The position numbers and the translations under genes are program-made. A stretch of 20,637 nucleotides of DNA from a virus, in the IMG/VR virus record IMGVR_UViG_3300000228_000054, positions 1 through 20,637 of that record; one strand, given 5' to 3'. Below, one piece after another: positions 2,550 to 15,343 of this stretch; within the stretch, counting starts at the first letter, position 1, and each line of letters starts with the position of its first letter. The notes beneath the pieces were generated by a model. The model worked only from the letters and a program-made list of their open reading frames with translations, was not told the DNA's origin and searched no databases.

Positions 2550-3134
2550 TTAGTTAATTTTTATGAAGTAGTTAAGAACAATTGTAGGCTGTGTATTCTG
2601 GTGCGTAACGCCCGATCCGTTGTTTTGAATAGAAATATTAGATAGGCTTCCATGTGTACTCCATACCTGATTGTTTGCTATATCACTTCTAGGTACATAC
2701 ATTCCAGCGGACCCAGGAGGAAATCCGGAAATCCCAGCTATTGAGTAATTGTGCCCATGCCCGGCATCATTTACTCCGTGTCCGTGAGAAGGCATTTGCC
2801 CTACACTTAAAGCATGAACTTCACTGCCCCCAACGGATCTCGGTACCTGCCCATTAACCCCTGAAGCGGCAGACGTAAGTCTATTTGCTGCGGAACCACC
2901 CATATTGTCAACGCCGGCAACAACTCGTCCACGTAGATCCGGAACAAGGGTCTGACCTGTTACGTTTGCATACTTAGATCCCGAGCAAGATGCTCCGTCA
3001 CACACAACCCACGACGACCCATTCAGGCTTTGGAACTGAGCCGGTGTTAAGTCCGCAGCAACGATCATACCTACAGGATTAAGGTCTCCTTGTTCAATCG
3101 CTCTTGATACTTGCAATCTAGGAACTTTCATCAT
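2550..3134 (-). CDS. Short tail collar protein (almost only the collar domain)
   Basis: In 194 residues this is nearly a bare collar domain: LNPVGMIVAADLTPAQFQ, SWVVCDGASCSGS, PDLRGRVVAG, then GSEVHALSVGQMPSHGHG and the end TQPTIVLNYFIKIN. The last two are the most canonical collar signatures in this window. Two His-Gly-His pairs (about 117-119 and 126-128) suggest metal binding in the trimer. Two ATG codons in a row (3134 and 3131) are possible starts; the ribosome binding site AGGAGAG (3141-3147) is six and nine bases ahead of them, so either fits. Residues VSRAIEQGDLNPVGMIV (9-25) are identical to part of the preceding collar gene. A short N-terminus suggests it needs a partner to attach to the baseplate. 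Confidence 0.85.
   Translation of the reverse strand: MMKVPRLQVSRAIEQGDLNPVGMIVAADLTPAQFQSLNGSSWVVCDGASCSGSKYANVTGQTLVPDLRGRVVAGVDNMGGSAANRLTSAASGVNGQVPRSVGGSEVHALSVGQMPSHGHGVNDAGHGHNYSIAGISGFPPGSAGMYVPRSDIANNQVWSTHGSLSNISIQNNGSGVTHQNTQPTIVLNYFIKIN
3061..3107 (-). repeat. 47-bp exact repeat, copy 1 (second copy 3610-3656)
   Basis: This stretch is identical to 3610-3656 base for base, and the bases flanking it differ. It encodes the start of the collar domain (within SRAIEQGDLNPVGMIV) in both genes. Flanking collar sequence is much less alike, so recent exchange between the genes or strong codon-level constraint is implied. Confidence 0.9.
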
Positions 3135-3173
3135 GTTATTCTCTCCTGTATCTGTCTGACCTAGATGTTAAAC

Positions 3174-4523
3174 TTAGTTAATTTTTATGAAATGATTGAC
3201 TGTGATGTTACGCATACGGGTTTCGTTATCACCAGCAGTTAAAGTAATACCTGTAGCAGCCGCGGAAGTACTAGACGCTTGACTTGTTAGGGCGCCACCA
3301 CCCGGACTAGTGCCATTCATATTGTTTACGCCTAATGTACCATGACTGTGCCCAGGATCACTAATTCCTAAACCATTCTTAGCCGTAGCCTGATCCTGAA
3401 AAGTTCCTAGTGCTAAATCACCTGAAGGATTCTGCTGCCCATCCGACCTTCCATTGTTTTTACCTCTTAGTACCAAGCCCCTAGCATCTGGAATTGTTGC
3501 CGCGCCAGTTATCGTAGCGTATGCGCTTCCGGCAATATTTCTTCCATCCATTAGTACCCAGCTATTACTATTTATACTCTGAAACTGAGACTCGGTTAAC
3601 ATAGACTGGACGATCATACCTACAGGATTAAGGTCTCCTTGTTCAATCGCTCTTGAGACTAAGAGTTTTGCCTCAAGATCTGAGATCCTCTTCTTGTGGT
3701 CAATTACGGTGTCACCGAAGGTCTTTAAATCAACATTAGATACACCACCAAAATTACTCTCTGGCTGACCAGACACCGCAGACAGTGTTGGAACCATACT
3801 ATCTACTTTTCCACTAAGTGTTTCAAGAAATTGAATCGTAGATTCCTGCGGTCTCTCCGCAAGGCTTCCAACTGATACAACCGAAATCTGATCAGTGGTT
3901 ACATGGGTTTGTTTAAATCTGATTAAGCTAGAAGTACTACCCGTTCCGACTTCTATGTAATCTCCGTTACTCAGTAAATCATTCCCGATACAGCGAATCT
4001 GCTGCAAACCGTTTCTATACACAAGAACCGCGCCGACCTGCGACATTGGATTTTTATTCAGATCAAAAGCTTCACCTACGGTAAAATCGGTCGAATTAGC
4101 AGCTAAGTCACCCGTTGCAACTAAAGGCCTTGCATCAACAAATGGTATGGTGCCTAGTTTACTGAATTCAAAGTTACCCGTGAATATCTCTCCTTCTTCT
4201 GCTGTAAAGCCAAGAAATACGATGTTATTATTCACGACAGTGTAGGATAGCCCACTAATTAAAGAGCCGCGCAATGAACTAGTAAGAGTTAGGTTATTTT
4301 TAAAGTAGTGCAACCTTGCACTCTGTAATAACGTTGCACTTGGATTTGTGAAACCCGTACTTGCCATTTCAACGGGTGAGTTTAGACTATTTAGACTAAA
4401 GCCTGAGTCACCTTGAGTAGCTCTGTGCGCAAACATGAGTCTATTTATACCGGTGAACAGACTCTTCTGTCCTAGAATTTCCGACTTCTTGTATGATATG
4501 CTTAACTTACCTAATGCGCTCAT
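3174..4523 (-). CDS. Tail collar protein with long N-terminal region and one 'YRNG' module
   Basis: This 449-residue protein has three parts. Residues 1-115 are unassigned and may attach to the tail. Residues about 128-222 form an 'RNG' module (GAVLVYRNGLQQ, then SLIRFKQTHVTTDQISVVS). A short region with helical character (KRISDLEAKLLVSRAIEQ, about 278-295) may be a trimeric coiled coil. The C-terminal 150 residues are a tail-collar domain: LNPVGMIV, SWVLMDGRN, IPDARGLVLRGKNNG, a DPGHSH pair and TVNHFIKIN. The gene looks mosaic: 47 bp match the downstream collar gene exactly and 50 bp match the upstream collar gene exactly. Its ribosome binding site is a modest GAGGA (4529-4533), five bases ahead of the ATG. 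Confidence 0.85.
   Translation of the reverse strand: MSALGKLSISYKKSEILGQKSLFTGINRLMFAHRATQGDSGFSLNSLNSPVEMASTGFTNPSATLLQSARLHYFKNNLTLTSSLRGSLISGLSYTVVNNNIVFLGFTAEEGEIFTGNFEFSKLGTIPFVDARPLVATGDLAANSTDFTVGEAFDLNKNPMSQVGAVLVYRNGLQQIRCIGNDLLSNGDYIEVGTGSTSSLIRFKQTHVTTDQISVVSVGSLAERPQESTIQFLETLSGKVDSMVPTLSAVSGQPESNFGGVSNVDLKTFGDTVIDHKKRISDLEAKLLVSRAIEQGDLNPVGMIVQSMLTESQFQSINSNSWVLMDGRNIAGSAYATITGAATIPDARGLVLRGKNNGRSDGQQNPSGDLALGTFQDQATAKNGLGISDPGHSHGTLGVNNMNGTSPGGGALTSQASSTSAAATGITLTAGDNETRMRNITVNHFIKIN
3373..3422 (-). repeat. 50-bp exact repeat, copy 1 (second copy 4777-4826)
   Basis: Identical to 4777-4826 over 50 bases, with different bases on both sides. It encodes the segment GDLALGTFQDQATAKNGL in the middle of the collar domain of the 449-residue protein. 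Confidence 0.9.
3610..3656 (-). repeat. 47-bp exact repeat, copy 2 (first copy 3061-3107)
   Basis: Second copy, inside the 449-residue collar gene, in the same reading frame and at the same domain position as in the short collar gene. Confidence 0.9.
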
Positions 4524-4556
4524 GGTTATCCTCGTTTAATTGTTAAGTTATGCTAG

Positions 4557-5348
4557 TTAATCCGTATTAATTTTAATAAAAATATTTACTGTTACATTGC
4601 GCATGCGGGTTTCGTTATTTGTTGATTGAATATTTGCGTTAGCTGCTGCGATGGTGGGCGTTGCGTTTGGACCATTATAGGCTGCGCCGGGATTATACCC
4701 ATTTCCATTACTACCGCCGTAAAAACTAATAGTTGGAGTATTTACCAATGTGTGACTATGCCCTGCATCATACAATCCATTCTTAGCCGTAGCCTGATCC
4801 TGAAAAGTTCCTAGTGCTAAATCACCATCTGGGTTTCTAGTGCTGCCATTATTCTTACCTCTAAGAACTACACCACGCAGATCGGGCACGTTATTTACTC
4901 CAGTTACTGAGGAATACTGGGAGCCAGCCACAGAACGTCCGTCAGCTAAAATCCAAGATGTCCCGTTTAATGCCTGGAACTGGGGCTCAGTAAGCATTGA
5001 GTGAATAACGGCTCCGACCGGATTAGGGTCTGATACGGCACCCGTGAATGCCGCAAACGCACCAGATGCGTTTGTATAGAATGACCTGATGAATTTAAAA
5101 CCCTTGTACCCAGCTGGACCAACTGTAAAGGAATTAACAGAAGAAGTAAGTATGACCTGACCATTTGTTGTGCTAATAACAGCAAATAAGTTATACCTTG
5201 TGCTGGCGGTGAGAGACGAGATGCTATGCTGTAGTGAAGACGTTTGATACTGCTGTCCACCAACGGTTAAACGACTATTACCAAGAGTTATTGCCCCCGA
5301 AGAATATGAAACTGAGCCAATACTGTCTTCAAAAAATTTTTGACCCAT
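4557..5348 (-). CDS. Tail collar protein with unique N-terminal beta domain
   Basis: This 263-residue protein has a beta-rich N-terminal domain (1-105), resembling an FNIII-like or chaperone-like sandwich (SSLTASTRYNLFAVIST, then VGPAGYKGFKFIRSF). A phage tail-collar domain follows (about 109-261): DPNPVGAVIHSMLTEPQFQ, SWILADGRSVAGSQY, PDLRGVVLRGKNNG, a His-x-His pair in AGHSH, and the closing TRMRNVTVNIFIKI. Collar domains form short trimeric tips in phage short tail fibres (T4 gp12 type) and use paired histidines to hold metal ions. The start has the strongest Shine-Dalgarno in the fibre block (TGGAGGTAA, 5352-5360). It shares an exact 50-bp stretch with the next gene. Confidence 0.85.
   Translation of the reverse strand: MGQKFFEDSIGSVSYSSGAITLGNSRLTVGGQQYQTSSLQHSISSLTASTRYNLFAVISTTNGQVILTSSVNSFTVGPAGYKGFKFIRSFYTNASGAFAAFTGAVSDPNPVGAVIHSMLTEPQFQALNGTSWILADGRSVAGSQYSSVTGVNNVPDLRGVVLRGKNNGSTRNPDGDLALGTFQDQATAKNGLYDAGHSHTLVNTPTISFYGGSNGNGYNPGAAYNGPNATPTIAAANANIQSTNNETRMRNVTVNIFIKINTD
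4777..4826 (-). repeat. 50-bp exact repeat, copy 2 (first copy 3373-3422)
   Basis: Second copy, in the 263-residue collar gene, in the same frame and at the equivalent position of the collar domain. The collar sequences on either side differ at many positions. Confidence 0.9.
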
Positions 5349-5375: not shown

Positions 5376-6434
5376 TTAAAGTTCTGCATCGGCTGACCAG
5401 TGTGCGTGATGGTAAAGCCCTAATCCGTTTGGATTCCATATTCTAAATCCACTAGTAGAGTAGCCAGAGATAGAAACCGCCTGATCCCCGTCTCCCTCGG
5501 TGTATATTTTATTAAACGTGCCCACGTGTGACCATATTTTTATGTTAGGCGTAGCTCTTTTTACTGTTTTAAAAGATACTCGTGAGGTCACTAGGCACGC
5601 TGAGGGCGCGCCGCCCCATGAGTGTGCATCGGTCTCTGCAATCACAGATGATCCGGGGGCTACGTATAGCGGATAGCTCTTTTCATAATACAAACGACAG
5701 CGGTCAAGTTGCTCAGTGAAATTGCTAAATAAAAATTCAGACGCCGAAGACCCAATTTCTAATTGAATTCCAGAAAATAAAATTGTTGCACCGGAATAAG
5801 AAATCCAATTAATTGAGTCCGGTGATTTAAGCCTAACAGATGGTGATGGTGCGTTCCAGATGCCCTCGACTCCTGCACGATCTGAAGCATCGCCCAAACT
5901 AAATCTTATTTCCATAGCGGCGCTGACATCAGTATTTTGTGATCCGGATAGCAAGCCGGGTATTACAATTTTTTTTCTTTCCCATGTATTAGCCTGCATT
6001 ACAGTATATGATGAGATGTAAGCTTCCAGATTATCGGAATTTATTATAGAAATACTGTATTTACCTGTGACTGCACTGTTTACATAGAAAGATAACACGC
6101 TCTGTGCTGCTGATGCCTTACCATAATTTAACTGAGAGGCGTCATAACCGATTATCGTAGTAGAGAGCGCATGAATTGATCCGGATGCGGGTGTTACAGC
6201 CGATGTAACAACTAATTTTGCAGCATGAGAAAATCCGGTTGGTACGTTATCGGTTACTTGCTGTATAGAAAAACCGCCCGTGCCTGCATGTACCTTAAAT
6301 CGGTCAGGACCATACACACCCGAAGGTGACGCAGCCACGGCATTACCTACGTTTCTTTGGTCAATACGCACGTCTCCATTTGTAACCATGTTTCTTGACC
6401 CAGTTCCTATGATTTTTGATAGCTCTCTAGCCAT
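5376..6434 (-). CDS. Tail fibre / receptor-binding protein, 'NG..QR' family, C-terminal ADAEL
   Basis: Residues 15-50 show the family pattern NMVTNGDVRIDQRNVG, then YGPDRFKV. Later segments are also typical of this phage fibre family: FSGIQLEIGSSASEFLFSNF (about 220-239) and EQLDRCRLYYEKSYPL (240-255). The protein has a carbohydrate-binding-like beta-sandwich plan with a C-terminal region unique to each member. The last residues are SADAEL, which a second fibre at 1553-2533 shares as QADAEL. The two proteins are distant relatives with differing middles, as for alternative receptor-binding parts. The ribosome binding site AGGTGA (6438-6443) overlaps the stop of the preceding fibre gene, indicating co-translation. 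Confidence 0.75.
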   Translation of the reverse strand: MARELSKIIGTGSRNMVTNGDVRIDQRNVGNAVAASPSGVYGPDRFKVHAGTGGFSIQQVTDNVPTGFSHAAKLVVTSAVTPASGSIHALSTTIIGYDASQLNYGKASAAQSVLSFYVNSAVTGKYSISIINSDNLEAYISSYTVMQANTWERKKIVIPGLLSGSQNTDVSAAMEIRFSLGDASDRAGVEGIWNAPSPSVRLKSPDSINWISYSGATILFSGIQLEIGSSASEFLFSNFTEQLDRCRLYYEKSYPLYVAPGSSVIAETDAHSWGGAPSACLVTSRVSFKTVKRATPNIKIWSHVGTFNKIYTEGDGDQAVSISGYSTSGFRIWNPNGLGLYHHAHWSADAEL

Positions 6435-9167: not shown

Positions 9168-10124
9168 TTACGATATGATTGATGTCAGTACGTCCGATAT
9201 TACAAGAGGCTCTTCTAAATACAATTCAAATTCAGTAGGTGCTGTAGCTACTACTCGATATCTACTTCCTGGACTACCCAGAGTCGTGCTTTCAATCATA
9301 AGAACCCCGTTTTTATAGAAAGAAAGCTTTTCGTTATTTGACAACCCAGTAAAACTAAGAAAAACGTTCCCACCGTACCCCATTACGTCGGATCTTGTTC
9401 CGACAAATTCGGATACGATAAAAGTTATTACGTCTGATTCAGATAGTGGCTGTTCTAGCTCCACTGCGTTCTGCGTTAGCTCTGTGTACTTCAGACTTCC
9501 TGAGTACATGTGGTACATATTCATGAGAAGCCCGTTTCTATACAGAAGCAGGCTATTTGTACCCACAGTGTAGACTGGGACAGGTATAACCGTTAGACCG
9601 GACTGATTGTAAATCTGGCCTCTCGATAGCACGCGATAATCTTTATTAATAAAAGTAAATACGTCCGATGACTGTGCATGTAGATTAAGATAGATGCTCT
9701 GTGAGGATTCTTCCTGATACTGATCAATAGCTGAACCGCATAGTTTTGTGTATAGCATAAGAACGCCGTTTCTAAATACATCTAGTCTATCTGAACCGAG
9801 ATTATAGCTGTTCGAAGCGTATACCGATAGCCTATCCTGTAACCCGAATACATATCTTCTGAATCTCGTGTTATAAACTAATCCGGGAGTGAAAGAGAAT
9901 AAATCAGGCGTGTACCATGCAAGAAGATCCTGACCGGGGAATGGTGTCCAATTTGGATCAATTATCTGGATGTTCGTGCGGGTAAGACTGTAAGAAGTTC
10001 TTGGCATAACTAGACCATCGCGGAATAACCAAATTTCTTCCTGACTATTAACCTCATGCTGTATGCTAAAGGCGCTATTCAGCCCATCTATTACGCCCGA
10101 CGGTGTCTCGTATATTGGCTTCGC
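9168..10124 (-). repeat. Four consecutive 'RNG' beta modules at the fibre C-terminus
   Basis: Centres at residues 770, 853, 931 and 1006 (spacing 83, 78 and 75): EIWLFRDGLVM, RLDVFRNGVLM, SLLLYRNGLLM and KLSFYKNGVLM. Each is followed by a region of aromatic and hydroxyl residues and ends in an acidic strand such as SDVFTFI, SDVITFI or SDVLTSI. The repeat fills the last 318 residues, so it is probably the distal or receptor-facing part. Confidence 0.75.
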
Positions 10125-12332
10125 ATCAAAGGTGTCAAATTCAATACCGATAGACCCGTCAAAGCTGAACTCGCTACCGATTATCTGATTTTTTCCGTTT
10201 ATCGGCAGCGGTGTATCTTTAAAAAAGAGCTCCGCTCTTGTTCCGGTGTAACTCGACATATTTATTCCGGTCTCGAACCCCTCGATTCTGCCCATGCCAA
10301 CAAATTGACAGTTGTTGCTATCAAGTTCCACGGCCTTCGTTGTACCGTAAGGAAAACCGTTTTGAATTAACTGTGTGCTTATCAATACGGGGTTTAGAGC
10401 CGTTTTTAGATTACTGCTTGGAAACCTTCCCTTTTGCAATGACTGCGCGGATATGGGAAAAGATGTAGAGTTATTTATGCTAAGTAGCACACCGCCGGAA
10501 CCACCTGAACCACCTACATTTAGATTAGAGTTTATTATTTTTATAAATGGTTTACTACGAAGAGAGTCCGGTCCTGTAAATTCTATTTCAAAAAATCTCT
10601 CAGAAAAGCTACCGCGTACAGTAACTTCGGCAATACCAGGTAATGGCTCAAGAAGGTTTTTTAAATCAGACGTGGTTGAATTGAATGGAAAGTTTAATCC
10701 AGTATTACCCGCAAACTCAAAATCGCAGGTACCGTCATCCGGTGTCTGAGAGAAATCAAATCTCTGTATTTCATTTCTACCGGAGTCGTTATACGTGATT
10801 AAAGGTAGAGAAATCTTATCGTCAAACCTAAGCGTAAAACCTGAACTCATGTCACCGGTAACGTAACAGCCTGTATGACCATGAAGTCCTGCTATGGCTG
10901 ACTGAACACCCGCTGCCGTAATATTAAAATCTAGATCAAGCGTTTTCTGAGTGTCTCCACTAAATAGGTCAATAAACTCGATTCTCCATGTACCTTCGTC
11001 AGGTACCGAGCTAAACAATATCTTCTGCGTCATCGTCTGACCGAGGTATCTTCTAAGACCTGTGTTATTCCCTCTGAAAACCACGTTTACTGTTTTTCTA
11101 TTTGTTCTAACGGTAGACTCTAGGTCCTCGACTTTTGTAACGAGTATGAAACCATTATTTGGAACGTAATCTATTGCATTCTGTAGTGTATGGAACTGCT
11201 TAAAACCTGATTCATTAGAAACAACGGCATCATAATCTGCATTAACTCCACCAGCAGCGGATTCTCCGGTGGCTGTTAATAAGATAAACGAATTTGAAAC
11301 AACTATGCCTAGTTTAATAGACGTGCTAATGTTTGTTAGTTTTCCGTGATTACTATCTGATAGAAAAATATCGTCTCCGATATTAAATCCCGTAGTTTTC
11401 GACACGAAACCAGACGGTGCCTTAACGATACGATCAGATAGGTAGGCAAGTCCGGATACTTTTGATGACAGTGTGCCGTTTGCAATAGCTCGTTTATAAA
11501 CATTATCCACATCACGGTAAACCGCGTCCTGCTCGCTCACGTAATAAAGCCCACCGGATAGAGTAGCGCTTCCGCTAAGAACTTCGGTCCCTACGCTGTT
11601 GTGTGAAATATTTGCTGATGGATTCGCTATATTAAATTCAGCGACAACCGTATCAAGTGATTTTACACCATCAAACGTTATAACTTTTCCATTGGCTTCG
11701 GTACCCCGATGAATAGCAGTAAATGTAACGCCGGAGTAAAATGTTTCAGCTCTAACACCGTCAAACTCGGGGTACTCGTCGTAGGGCTGATGAAAATATT
11801 TAAACGGGGCGCTGTCATTCTTTAAATACATCCCCGCCTTGTGCATTGCTTCTTTAAATTCTGGGTGGGCGTTTGGATCGTTTGTGTGACTGGCAAGATC
11901 AACTGCGATGGTATTCTGAAATAAATAGCTAGATGTAATATTGTAAGACACCAGAGAAATCTGTAGATCAAGTGTTACCGTTCCGCTTGGATCATAAATA
12001 ATTGTTTCAGTTGGCTGCCCGATAGCTAATAGAAAATCGTTATTAAGACTATCCTTAGCGTATACGTAGATTTCTTTTATGTCCTCTTTCGTAATCGTGG
12101 TTCCAGGAGGAACGATACAGGTAATACGTATAGTATTTTCGTTCAAGGGTAGTCTGGCTGAAATTGCGTTCGTGTACCACTGACCGGAGTTCGGGCCGGT
12201 GCGTGTTTCTTCTAGTACACCGGCATCACGGCTTACACCAAACGACCACGGCAAAATCTTAAATCCTTCGTTGTTCTGGGCGTCTATTGACTTCGCAATT
12301 CCGACCTGAGTAAAACGACCAACAATACTCAT
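9168..12332 (-). CDS. Long tail fibre, gpH/DUF3751-type N-terminus, mosaic shaft, four C-terminal 'RNG' modules
   Basis: In 1054 residues several parts can be read. Residues 1-140 resemble the fibre N-terminus that attaches to the baseplate in P2 gpH-like proteins (FTQVGIAKSIDAQN, then AISARLPLNENTIRITCIVP). Residues 200-262 are a small beta module of the type common in phage fibres (VTFTAIHRGTEANGK, ending LSGG), followed by a 'gld..ls..' module to about 355. Residues 376-420 (FKQFHTLQNAIDYV, then GFILV) resemble the start of a pectate-lyase-like beta-helix. Two related modules, 433-517 and 520-604, interrupt it, and it seems to resume after a GGSGGSGG linker (607-614) up to about 732. Residues 737-1054 are four repeats centred on FRDGLVM, FRNGVLM, YRNGLLM and YKNGVLM. 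A role in host recognition is likely. The start has AGGGGAGA upstream. No enzyme motif was recognised. Confidence 0.8.
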   Translation of the reverse strand: MSIVGRFTQVGIAKSIDAQNNEGFKILPWSFGVSRDAGVLEETRTGPNSGQWYTNAISARLPLNENTIRITCIVPPGTTITKEDIKEIYVYAKDSLNNDFLLAIGQPTETIIYDPSGTVTLDLQISLVSYNITSSYLFQNTIAVDLASHTNDPNAHPEFKEAMHKAGMYLKNDSAPFKYFHQPYDEYPEFDGVRAETFYSGVTFTAIHRGTEANGKVITFDGVKSLDTVVAEFNIANPSANISHNSVGTEVLSGSATLSGGLYYVSEQDAVYRDVDNVYKRAIANGTLSSKVSGLAYLSDRIVKAPSGFVSKTTGFNIGDDIFLSDSNHGKLTNISTSIKLGIVVSNSFILLTATGESAAGGVNADYDAVVSNESGFKQFHTLQNAIDYVPNNGFILVTKVEDLESTVRTNRKTVNVVFRGNNTGLRRYLGQTMTQKILFSSVPDEGTWRIEFIDLFSGDTQKTLDLDFNITAAGVQSAIAGLHGHTGCYVTGDMSSGFTLRFDDKISLPLITYNDSGRNEIQRFDFSQTPDDGTCDFEFAGNTGLNFPFNSTTSDLKNLLEPLPGIAEVTVRGSFSERFFEIEFTGPDSLRSKPFIKIINSNLNVGGSGGSGGVLLSINNSTSFPISAQSLQKGRFPSSNLKTALNPVLISTQLIQNGFPYGTTKAVELDSNNCQFVGMGRIEGFETGINMSSYTGTRAELFFKDTPLPINGKNQIIGSEFSFDGSIGIEFDTFDAKPIYETPSGVIDGLNSAFSIQHEVNSQEEIWLFRDGLVMPRTSYSLTRTNIQIIDPNWTPFPGQDLLAWYTPDLFSFTPGLVYNTRFRRYVFGLQDRLSVYASNSYNLGSDRLDVFRNGVLMLYTKLCGSAIDQYQEESSQSIYLNLHAQSSDVFTFINKDYRVLSRGQIYNQSGLTVIPVPVYTVGTNSLLLYRNGLLMNMYHMYSGSLKYTELTQNAVELEQPLSESDVITFIVSEFVGTRSDVMGYGGNVFLSFTGLSNNEKLSFYKNGVLMIESTTLGSPGSRYRVVATAPTEFELYLEEPLVISDVLTSIIS
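10521..11036 (-). repeat. Two tandem beta-sandwich-like modules inside the long fibre
   Basis: Fibre residues 433-517 and 520-604 align over about 85 residues: QKILFSSVPDEGTWRIEFI against QRFDFSQTPDDGTCDFEFA, then QSAIAGLHGHTGCYVTGD against KNLLEPLPGIAEVTVRGS, then FTLRFDD against FEIEFTG. Such 'P-D-x-GT...F...V.a.L..L' modules are found in tandem in phage and bacterial surface proteins. The role is not known; it may be sugar or protein binding. Confidence 0.65.
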
Positions 12333-12397: not shown

Positions 12398-13000
12398 TTA
12401 TACCACTCTTCTAACTATCAGACCGCGATAATTTGCGTTATGAAAGCCCGCCATAATTGGAACAGCTTCTGCAAATTTTGCTGCGCTGAATCTCACGTCG
12501 ATATTATCAATTTTTGCCAAAACATAGTTTTCACTGAAAAGCCTAAGCTTGTCCAGAGTATTGTATACGTCTGTAACAATCGAGGTGTTCATCACGACTA
12601 TGATCTCATACGACCACGGCTCCGCATCTCGAACTGTGTTCTGCCACCACTCTTTTATGATAGAATCGAATCCCATCAATTTTAGAACCAACTCCATTCC
12701 GCGTCTAGTTCCTTTTAAGTTACCGATAAGATCAACGAAAGCTGTCATTGTTGAAAAACTAAAACCGTCAAGGGTATCCATAACGTCTTTGATATATGAA
12801 TAACCAAGCTCTGTGATAATTTGTTTTATCGGCTCGTTATCAAGAGATCCGGGATTTGTTAGTTTATATTTCACGGGTGCCATGTCCATATTTACCCCGT
12901 CAACAACGTACTGCACCAGCTCCTGAATTTTTACCCAGAGCTCCTTATCTTTTTTATGCTTTGCTATAAAGTTTTGTACATCCCTAAGCTCAGTAGCCAT
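12398..13000 (-). CDS. Baseplate protein, P2 gpI-like (tail protein I family)
   Basis: The segment at residues 96-119 (KGTRRGMELVLKLMGFD, then EWW) matches the pattern of the tail_P2_I family: a Lys/Arg-Gly-Thr turn, a helix, a Gly and then Glu-Trp before a beta segment. The N-terminal 70 residues are helical. The 200-residue length suits the family. In P2, gpI follows gpJ and is part of the wedge that carries the tail fibre gpH, and gene order here is the same: gp6/J ahead, fibre behind. The start overlaps the upstream stop (TAATG) and has a ribosome binding site (TGAGGAA) inside the gp6 gene. The gene ends 65 bases before the next one, the widest gap in the window. Confidence 0.8.
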   Translation of the reverse strand: MATELRDVQNFIAKHKKDKELWVKIQELVQYVVDGVNMDMAPVKYKLTNPGSLDNEPIKQIITELGYSYIKDVMDTLDGFSFSTMTAFVDLIGNLKGTRRGMELVLKLMGFDSIIKEWWQNTVRDAEPWSYEIIVVMNTSIVTDVYNTLDKLRLFSENYVLAKIDNIDVRFSAAKFAEAVPIMAGFHNANYRGLIVRRVV

Positions 13001-14946
13001 TAGTTCCTCACGATAATTTCTGTTGTTATCACATTGTATTGGTTTTCAGCTATGGCTATGGTCTCTGACTTCTGATCAAGACAAGTCCATTCGATAGACT
13101 TATCAATAACTCTATCGCCTACTGTTAAAGAAAATGCTGGCTGCACAAAATTTGATTTCCCAAGGTATGCGTAAACCTGAAACATTAGTTGGTTATTGTC
13201 CTGACTGACTGGATCAGTTGATACTATCGTCTCACCTCTTGAGTAATGCTTATTTGGCATCCAACTTTGTATACCGGCTCCCGACTTCTCTCTTACAATC
13301 CATAAGACATTCTTGTCCTTTATAAGCGTGCCGACGATATCTGAAACTGGTGTGGAGCCAATACTGGGCCAAGTAGGTTCAGTATTATCGCTTAGTTTTC
13401 TATGCCTACGCACTCGATACACGAATCCGTTTCCGATACTGGGCTTAGCAATGTCGTCGACGCTGTACGCCGTACTTGGTAGCCAGTAAGGGTAGGCCGC
13501 GACTTCTGTTCTAGGCACGGCTGTCCATTCGATGTCCACGTCGTTTACGATATTAGCTGCAACAGTAGGCCAAATTGGTTCCACTGCACCTGTGAAGGCC
13601 AGTATTTTAGTTACTCGATAAACTTTACCGTTATCAGGAGATGCCTTAATGTATTCACCCAATTCATAAAGCGTATTAGAGGCCCACGATTGTCCAGTTA
13701 TCTCGACCCGTGCAATTTTAATAAAGTCATAATCTTCGAACGCCTGCTCAATAGCCATTAGATCTAGAAGATCCCCTAGTATTAACCGTCTAGTAGATAG
13801 TACTTCATCAACTGTCTGCTGTATGTTTCCTGCTTTTTTTGGTTGAAGCGTTAAAGTTATTTTTAATTTTAACGGTGATCTATTTGGATCCTCTATTACT
13901 GGAGGCTGTAATCCATGTGGTCTGTAGTTTTCATAAACATCTTGTACGTTTATTTTTTCATCTTCAGTTAGACGGCCCTCGTTTTCCATTAGGTAAATAA
14001 TTTTCATTACGGCTGCGCTAACGTCTTGACCTTTCGCATCAATAAATCGCGCGTCTAATTTCTTAAAGATCTTAGCTTGGTCATTTCTACCACGAACTGC
14101 GTTCTTTGTTTCATTTTCAAGAGGCGCCTTAACCTGTATGCTGTAATTTTCTTCCGGCTTCTGATACAGAGAAATAATTTCTACAAGATTCTTTACTCCG
14201 GTCGTCGCATCAAGCACGACGTCATCTGGCGTAAAAGATGTATCTTTCAAATCTACCCACTCTAACTTTATTGGAGTCCCAGTAGTGTAGCGCACTGCAA
14301 AGGAATCGTAGTTTAAATACTTGGCATCAATGGAACCAAGAGGATTGCTCTGTACTGATATTTTACCGTTTAACATCTCAACGGTATCAGAAGACATATC
14401 CACGATATCAGATCCAATGAATAATCTGAAATGCTCGCTGACGTTTTTCTTCGTGAATCTGAAGAAATTTAGTTTTTCATTTACTGCGTAAAGCGTCTCT
14501 TCAAATAGCTCTCCAACTACGCATAGTACATCGATAGTAATTCCGGCGTTATAAGGTTTTGCTTCTAAAACGATAATTCGTCTATCCTTGACTGCACCAA
14601 GATCATCGTATTGATTGAATACTCCCGACGTACTCGGTGTCAGATTAATTTTTACCACGGAGTTCATTCCTCTGAATGCGCTGTAGCCATTTAACTGTGC
14701 CCCACCTATGATGGATGAGCGGTTAATCGCAAACTGGTAATACGCCTCTCTTCTTGCCATCATTGAATCGTATTTTAAAAATGAGGATAGCCCTGCAATT
14801 AAATCAATTAACGCCTGTCCGGTTGCGCTATCATAGAAGCTAGACCATTTTTCCGCATCTGGTTTATTGTTCAACCACTCACGTATGTCCTGTTTGATAT
14901 TTTCCTGAGAAATACTTTCCGGTTTTATGATAAAATCATCACTCAT
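13000..14946 (-). CDS. Baseplate wedge protein, gp6 / P2 gpJ-like, with three inserted carbohydrate-binding-like modules
   Basis: This 648-residue protein opens like a gp6/baseplate_J protein: IREWLNNKPDAEKWSSFYDS, then LIDLIAGLSSFLKYDSMMAR and a long helical and beta core to about residue 417 (ending FIKIARVEITG). Residues about 419-479, 487-553 and 561-624 are three tandem modules. They share W-x(4)-Y, a Gly-x-x-(I/V) or similar turn, a (V/F)Y-R/Q-V strand, EP-x-WP in the first two, and a closing Trp. These resemble small carbohydrate-binding (chitin-binding type) modules seen in phage proteins. The last 24 residues (ending TTEIIVRN) resemble the final strands of the gp6/J core, so the modules appear to be an insertion. 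In myophages, gp6 forms the ring that links wedges and opens on infection. The start is preceded by GGAAGG within the end of the gp25 gene, and the TAA overlaps the next ATG as TAATG. Confidence 0.85.
   Translation of the reverse strand: MSDDFIIKPESISQENIKQDIREWLNNKPDAEKWSSFYDSATGQALIDLIAGLSSFLKYDSMMARREAYYQFAINRSSIIGGAQLNGYSAFRGMNSVVKINLTPSTSGVFNQYDDLGAVKDRRIIVLEAKPYNAGITIDVLCVVGELFEETLYAVNEKLNFFRFTKKNVSEHFRLFIGSDIVDMSSDTVEMLNGKISVQSNPLGSIDAKYLNYDSFAVRYTTGTPIKLEWVDLKDTSFTPDDVVLDATTGVKNLVEIISLYQKPEENYSIQVKAPLENETKNAVRGRNDQAKIFKKLDARFIDAKGQDVSAAVMKIIYLMENEGRLTEDEKINVQDVYENYRPHGLQPPVIEDPNRSPLKLKITLTLQPKKAGNIQQTVDEVLSTRRLILGDLLDLMAIEQAFEDYDFIKIARVEITGQSWASNTLYELGEYIKASPDNGKVYRVTKILAFTGAVEPIWPTVAANIVNDVDIEWTAVPRTEVAAYPYWLPSTAYSVDDIAKPSIGNGFVYRVRRHRKLSDNTEPTWPSIGSTPVSDIVGTLIKDKNVLWIVREKSGAGIQSWMPNKHYSRGETIVSTDPVSQDNNQLMFQVYAYLGKSNFVQPAFSLTVGDRVIDKSIEWTCLDQKSETIAIAENQYNVITTEIIVRN
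13075..13692 (-). repeat. Three tandem carbohydrate-binding-like modules inside the gp6/J gene
   Basis: Coding segments about 13510-13692, 13288-13488 and 13075-13266 encode modules of 61 to 67 residues. Matching positions include W-ASNTLYELGEYI / W-LPSTAYSVDDIA / W-MPNKHYSRGETI, then KVYRV / FVYRV / LMFQV, and IEWTAV / VLWIVR / IEWTCL. EP-x-WP is present in the first two and is PAF in the third. Divergence between copies is large, so the triplication is not recent. Confidence 0.7.
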
Positions 14947-14951
14947 ATCTA

Positions 14952-15332
14952 CTACCTTCCTAATACTACTACTGCGTTATAAGACCCTGTCCCAGTGAAT
15001 CCCTTCAATCTAAAATGAAGATCAATGGCGTATGCATTATTTTCCGTATCCGCGAATATACTACTATCCTCTGTTAGAATTTCAATCATGGGTAGCCTAT
15101 CTGCTAACTGCTCAGATAATGACGAAAAAATTAACGCCGCGTTTGAATCATCAACTAGATCAAAAAGAAAATCGTCTAAATCTACGCCGTAATCAGGTTG
15201 AAATAATCTCTCACCCTTACGGGTCATTGTATAGTCTTCAAGCCACTGAGAAACTGCTCTCTCATCTATAACATCTGGACGTAGAGTCGGTGAGTTTTCA
15301 TTTAGATCTGTATAAAATACTTTCCTACTCAT
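14952..15332 (-). CDS. Baseplate wedge protein, gp25 / P2 gpW-like (lysozyme-like superfamily)
   Basis: This 126-residue protein carries the gp25/W hallmark near residues 36-55 (RKGERLFQPDYGVDLDDFLF), corresponding to the conserved Glu-Arg...Pro...Tyr-Gly segment of the family. The rest alternates a helix (SLSEQLADRLPMIE) with a beta-hairpin that ends in GSYNAVVVLGR. In T4, gp25 sits at the inner wedge and is where sheath assembly begins; contractile injection systems all have it. I chose the ATG at 15330-15332. An upstream in-frame GTG at 15338 would lie inside the Shine-Dalgarno sequence AAGGTG (15338-15343), whereas that sequence is spaced five bases from this ATG. The start region touches the stop of the 478-residue protein, and its own stop codon lies close to the gp6 start. 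Confidence 0.9.
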   Translation of the reverse strand: MSRKVFYTDLNENSPTLRPDVIDERAVSQWLEDYTMTRKGERLFQPDYGVDLDDFLFDLVDDSNAALIFSSLSEQLADRLPMIEILTEDSSIFADTENNAYAIDLHFRLKGFTGTGSYNAVVVLGR

Positions 15333-15337
15333 CGCCA

Positions 15338-15343
15338 CACCTT
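15338..15343 (-). promoter_or_regulatory. Ribosome binding site that fixes the gp25 start
   Basis: AAGGTG on the coding strand lies five bases ahead of the ATG at 15332 and partly covers the TAA of the upstream gene (15342-15344). The only alternative start, GTG at 15338, is inside this element and so is very unlikely. Confidence 0.8.

Follow-up and report, generated by a model that had tools for sequence, protein, structure and literature searches.

The window, which here means the whole 20,637-nt stretch of viral DNA analysed, contains a gene for a T4 gp6-type baseplate wedge protein that carries three tandem modules inserted close to its C terminus. By profile comparison and structural modelling these modules appear to be CBM5/12-like in fold group, although they lack the tryptophan that contacts chitin in CBM12, and the gp6 proteins that carry them form a single clade. 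We propose that the array, inherited since one acquisition, may give the wedge ring a multivalent layer for contact with glycans, a reading to which we assign an even chance. In a sub-lineage of this clade the gp6 gene is split within the second module.

Results

A baseplate wedge gene with an insertion near its end

The identification of the protein as gp6, made in a preliminary description from the sequence, was confirmed by a match of the window protein to PF21379, the N-terminal gp6 helical domain (Pfam; 30.5 bits against a cut-off of 27, E=3e-7). The window has the gene order gp25 - gp6 - gpI, with the start of the gpI-like gene overlapping the gp6 stop. The features of the locus are as follows.

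14952..15338, minus strand: gp25-like gene, upstream neighbour (phrog_261, 1e-12; PF04965 below cut-off)
13000..14946, minus strand: gp6/J-type baseplate wedge gene, 648 aa (PF21379, phrog_219, homologues)
13705..14946, minus strand: gp6 core, residues 1-414 (identity to module-less gp6 proteins)
13513..13692, minus strand: module 1, residues 419-478, CBM5/12-like (phrog_20658, 1e-5; AF2 model with pLDDT 88 and pTM 0.75)
13282..13488, minus strand: module 2, residues 487-555 (phrog_20658, 1e-4)
13318..13365, minus strand: module 2 loop after EPTWP, residues 528-543, intact in the window and the cut site in L143, L144, L147 and L150
13075..13269, minus strand: module 3, residues 560-624 (phrog_20658, 1e-3; 37 bits with an 87-module profile of which module 3 is not a row)
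13003..13074, minus strand: last strand of the gp6 core, residues 625-648 (alignment with the ends of module-less relatives)
12398..13000, minus strand: gpI-like gene (Tail_P2_I), downstream neighbour (PF09684, 28.3 bits, cut-off 20.6)

The three modules together occupy 13075-13692 on the minus strand, exactly residues 419-624 of the 648-aa protein. Modelled at full length from its single sequence with AF2, the protein reached a pLDDT of 33. The limits of the insertion come from related gp6 proteins that are 434-436 aa long and carry no modules (L016/L019, L017 and L018/L020). Core residues 6-414 of the window protein are 30-32% identical to those of L016, L017 and L020, which keep the core as far as DFIKIARV and then run directly into a short homologous end (..NSYIKV..) aligning with window residues 625-648. 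Because these related viral proteins have the same end without the modules, the modules are an insertion near the gp6 end, and the roughly 24 residues that follow them belong to the core, both as had been proposed. The gp6 relatives of cultured phages (Vibrio, Rhizobium, Pseudomonas, Escherichia) are likewise shorter and end in a similar x-[QE]-Y element. That residues 418-624 are simply part of the ordinary gp6 fold is hardly tenable, given that close relatives do without them and that the modules match a separate family present in unrelated proteins.

These alignments would place the modules in the final hairpin of the C-terminal domain of gp6. In XM1, domain III of gp16 is homologous to T4 gp6 340-489 and forms a dimer with the adjacent wedge (PMC10457771); by sequence continuity with the relatives, the C-terminal domain of the window protein may be the counterpart of this inter-wedge dimerisation domain.

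Three related modules of a CBM5/12-like fold group

The modules are related to one another, as first described. Local alignment scores were 92 for modules 1 and 2 (shuffled maximum 48) and 68 for modules 1 and 3 (shuffled maximum 39), neither being reached in 1000 shuffles; modules 2 and 3 were weak as a direct pair (score 39; 4/1000 shuffles). All three were matched separately by phrog_20658, which matched the whole insert at 2.2e-16. This family is named for capsid decoration, whereas the window modules lie inside a baseplate protein. A profile of 87 collected modules found the three at 9e-20, 4e-18 and 7e-11, of which only the third value is non-circular, as the profile itself includes modules 1 and 2. 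The 87 were gathered by a pattern requiring NG..Y and EP.WP, so their conservation is in part that selection. The W..Y and EPxWP pattern originally noted for all three holds for modules 1 and 2, whereas module 3 reads QPAFS in place of EPxWP and retains W..Y..D..W.

Several comparisons point to the CBM5/12 fold group, in line with the earlier view of the modules as carbohydrate-binding in type. The module profile matched the CBM12 domain 1ed7, the chitin-binding domain of chitinase A1, at E=0.0028, and PF02839 matched 26 of the 87 modules at a permissive limit (best 9.3e-7); a Pfam search with the window modules themselves gave no match, PF02839 included. When the AF2 model of module 1 was searched against the PDB with Foldseek, the receptor-binding domain of the cyanophage Pam1 tailspike came first (7EEA; TM 0.58 on the query, E 0.056), followed by chitin deacetylases and chitinase B, with no match below E 0.001. 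The Pam1 domain sits on a tailspike and has weak sequence similarity to module 1 (17%). Among viral models the module fold appeared in many virion proteins, two of which, from Siphoviridae sp. ctYh54 and ctgu013 (BFVD; TM 0.78 and 0.70), bear the automatic name baseplate wedge protein. The phage modules share with CBM5/12 (1ED7, PF02839) about 40 residues of profile and the W..Y..G..NG..Y pattern, but lack the chitin Trp and have in addition EPxWP and a C-terminal hairpin.

The original reasoning from the W/Y pattern to glycan binding is not supported, since the pattern is no sign of a binding face. A conserved Tyr and a conserved Trp of CBM5 domains reportedly belong to the hydrophobic core (PMC8449059), and these probably correspond to the Y and the last W of the modules. 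Chitin contact in CBM12 is made by Trp687, just before Glu-Pro (PMC2265269). None of the 87 modules has this Trp, whether sought by alignment or without it, and none has a Trp anywhere in the contact loop, so that chitin is unsupported as a ligand. In all nine gp6 proteins, module 3 has a Tyr or Phe five residues after the conserved F/Y/W.

The module on other virion proteins

Our scan recovered 66 module-bearing ORFs, which include head closure proteins, head-tail adaptors, sheath and sheath stabiliser proteins, hub, nozzle, fibre, gpI and baseplate J proteins. The module is a general phage decoration domain, and the expectation that such modules are usually on fibres or glycan enzymes was too narrow. 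Matches to CBM5/12 in viral contigs can be virion modules and not metabolic genes. A Baseplate_J protein at L129:2239-3270, minus strand (PF04865, 4.6e-18), has the same type of module on a gp6/J-family protein, present as a single copy near residues 123-178. This different position marks a separate graft, and gp6/J proteins have therefore been decorated at least twice. A gpI-like (Tail_P2_I) protein at L106:7380-9080 has two CBM5/12-like modules.

Distribution and ancestry of the insertion

A search for other gp6 proteins with the same insertion, combining a module pattern scan with alignment searches, found it in eight further distinct viral lineages, all of them metagenomic contigs. Locus searches with a single protein or a seven-row alignment returned nothing; narrower alignments and a DNA pattern succeeded. 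In L122, L094 and L051 the gp6 protein has three plain modules, in L145 (identical to L146) the region of module 2 holds a further nested domain, and in L143, L144, L147 and L150 the insertion is present and gp6 is split. Insertions of this kind were absent from cultured phages in tblastn searches, which matched gp6 relatives with none carrying modules, and a scan of genome contigs found no relative, hence no host was identified. A match of the insert to BcepSaruman was rejected as chance on inspection of the protein.

In a tree built from the core only, the module-bearing gp6 proteins, including that of the window, form one clade (support 97/92); the split gp6 proteins group with support 88/94, below the starred level. 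Core identity among the module-bearing lineages is only 33-42%, yet the three-module array is retained in order. Between phages, modules at the same position score a mean of 106 against 76 for those at different positions, and the triplet is therefore old. The degree of conservation in the modules is similar to that in the core, unlike the hypervariability of strain-specific receptor tips.

gp6 is split within module 2 in four lineages

In four of the carriers, gp6 is encoded by two ORFs that divide inside module 2:

L143:9001-11757, split gp6
L144:8995-11168, split gp6
L147:8853-11292, split gp6
L150:8977-11227, split gp6

The first ORF (gp6A) stops just past the EPxW(P) of module 2 in all four. 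The second (gp6B) starts 10-49 nt after it and encodes 108-116 aa, beginning with the V.DG..LW hairpin of module 2 and continuing through module 3 to a core end of (N/D)(E/Q)YY. The neighbours are partly those of the window, with gp25 preceding gp6A in L144 and L147 and gpI following gp6B in L143 and L147. As the AF2 model of module 1 has two strands (55-58 and 61-66) beyond EPxWP, gp6B would, by homology with this model, supply the last hairpin of module 2.

Metagenomic contigs can contain errors, and the split might have arisen in assembly or sequencing; alternatively, a conserved frameshift or read-through of the stop codon might be at work. We consider all of these very improbable: the cut falls in the same loop in four pairwise-divergent contigs from different metagenomes, and gp6B lies in frames 0, 2, 1 and 1 relative to gp6A, a different frame in three of the four lineages. 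It starts with ATG or TTG and has a GGAG-type site upstream; in L150, the ATG at 10880 has a better site than an upstream GTG. The differing frames, together with these start signals, speak against an artefact common to the four contigs and against frameshifting or read-through, and a conserved frameshift or read-through was rejected on the frames.

In most unsplit relatives, the loop at the cut site is longer than in ordinary modules. One or more extra domains of the type GNxIxLxFDG..WNTxNPTN lie in the module 2 region, after residue ~470 in split gp6A and at ~500-625 in L145. In all four split lineages gp6A has one Cys a short way ahead of module 2 and another at or next to its C terminus; the window, L122 and L094 are without both. 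Directly after the split gp6 of L143 is an endonuclease VII-type gene (L143:11760-12236; PF02945, 5e-22), and the split may have arisen through a homing endonuclease. We tentatively suggest, at a little less than even chances, that this sub-lineage builds gp6 from two polypeptides and that module 2 is a clasp re-joining them by fold complementation. The products of gp6A and gp6B would then re-join through module 2, and one may speculate that the Cys pair helps to lock the clasp. The split lineages suggest how a decoration domain can enter the assembly of a core machine.

A possible role for the array

Accessory domains of glycan-binding type on virion proteins are already known. The present case would differ in that an array of three modules, fixed in the final hairpin of gp6 throughout a deep clade, could provide adhesion on the wedge ring itself, which adjoins the parts that trigger contraction. 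Under the proposal made above, an ancestor of the clade gained a row of three CBM5/12-like modules in the final beta-hairpin of the C-terminal domain of gp6, where neighbouring wedges are joined in related phages, and its descendants have inherited them. With gp6 at about 12 copies, by analogy with known baseplates, up to 36 presumably exposed modules could stand on the ring, and may make low-affinity, multivalent glycan contacts that steady the baseplate on the envelope while the fibres engage.

We favour this glycan-contact reading because of the fold group and because of a precedent in the Bacillus cereus phage Vp4, whose wedge protein Gp119 has CBM-type domains and was shown to decorate host cells, whereas its homologue Gp177 of Deep-Blue lacks these domains and does not (PMC11406892). 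The parallel is partial: Gp119 is a BW3 protein with CBM16- and xylanase-type folds, the window protein is a gp6-type BW2, and Vp4 has a Gram-positive host and no split gene. Phage Ig-like domains are likewise small and have been added to virion proteins of many classes, among them baseplate wedge initiators; some bind carbohydrate, although their fold is Ig and not CBM5/12 (PMC7602432). Against glycan contact we count the lack of a recognisable binding residue, the chitin Trp missing from 87 of 87 modules, conservation close to that of the core and unlike that of receptor tips, the PDB search with its best matches above E 0.001, and the carbohydrate-binding module on the neck fibre of the Anabaena phage A-1(L), which did not bind its host (PMC10966104).

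The same phage provides a case for an architectural role, in which the modules, with no sugar binding, would serve as docking sites for tail fibres or as cement between neighbouring wedges. Its gp6-type wedge protein gp31 also has an extra inserted domain, located at residues 81-180 and not in the C-terminal hairpin, which plugs into the hub and holds the long tail fibre (PMC10966104). Such a role also suits the constant module order and core-like conservation, the use of module 2 as a gene split site, the occurrence of the module on internal-type virion parts (head-tail adaptors, head closure) and the absent chitin Trp. However, the fold group is known for glycan binding, eight of the ten close module-less relatives retrieved do without modules, and the closest functional precedent, Vp4 Gp119, binds cells. 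We regard an architectural role as a serious contender, close to the glycan-contact reading and rather short of even chances. Spread over so many unrelated virion proteins, the modules might instead act mostly as neutral spacers or shields that have no particular partner, which seems improbable for an array kept in order in proteins whose cores have diverged this far. With module-less gp6 proteins, intact arrays and split genes among them, these phages offer a natural series in which the role of the array can be tested.

Other features of the window

Two fibre-type proteins (1553-2533 and 5376-6434, minus strand) share the same phrog_4492 region and ADAEL ends and are probable paralogues. Between them, at 2550-5348 on the minus strand, three adjacent collar-fibre-type genes share NPVGMIV/SWV..DG segments. 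A 1054-aa protein with no Pfam match, encoded at 9168-12332 on the minus strand, has a C-terminal [FYR]RNG[LV]LM-like motif every ~70-80 residues.
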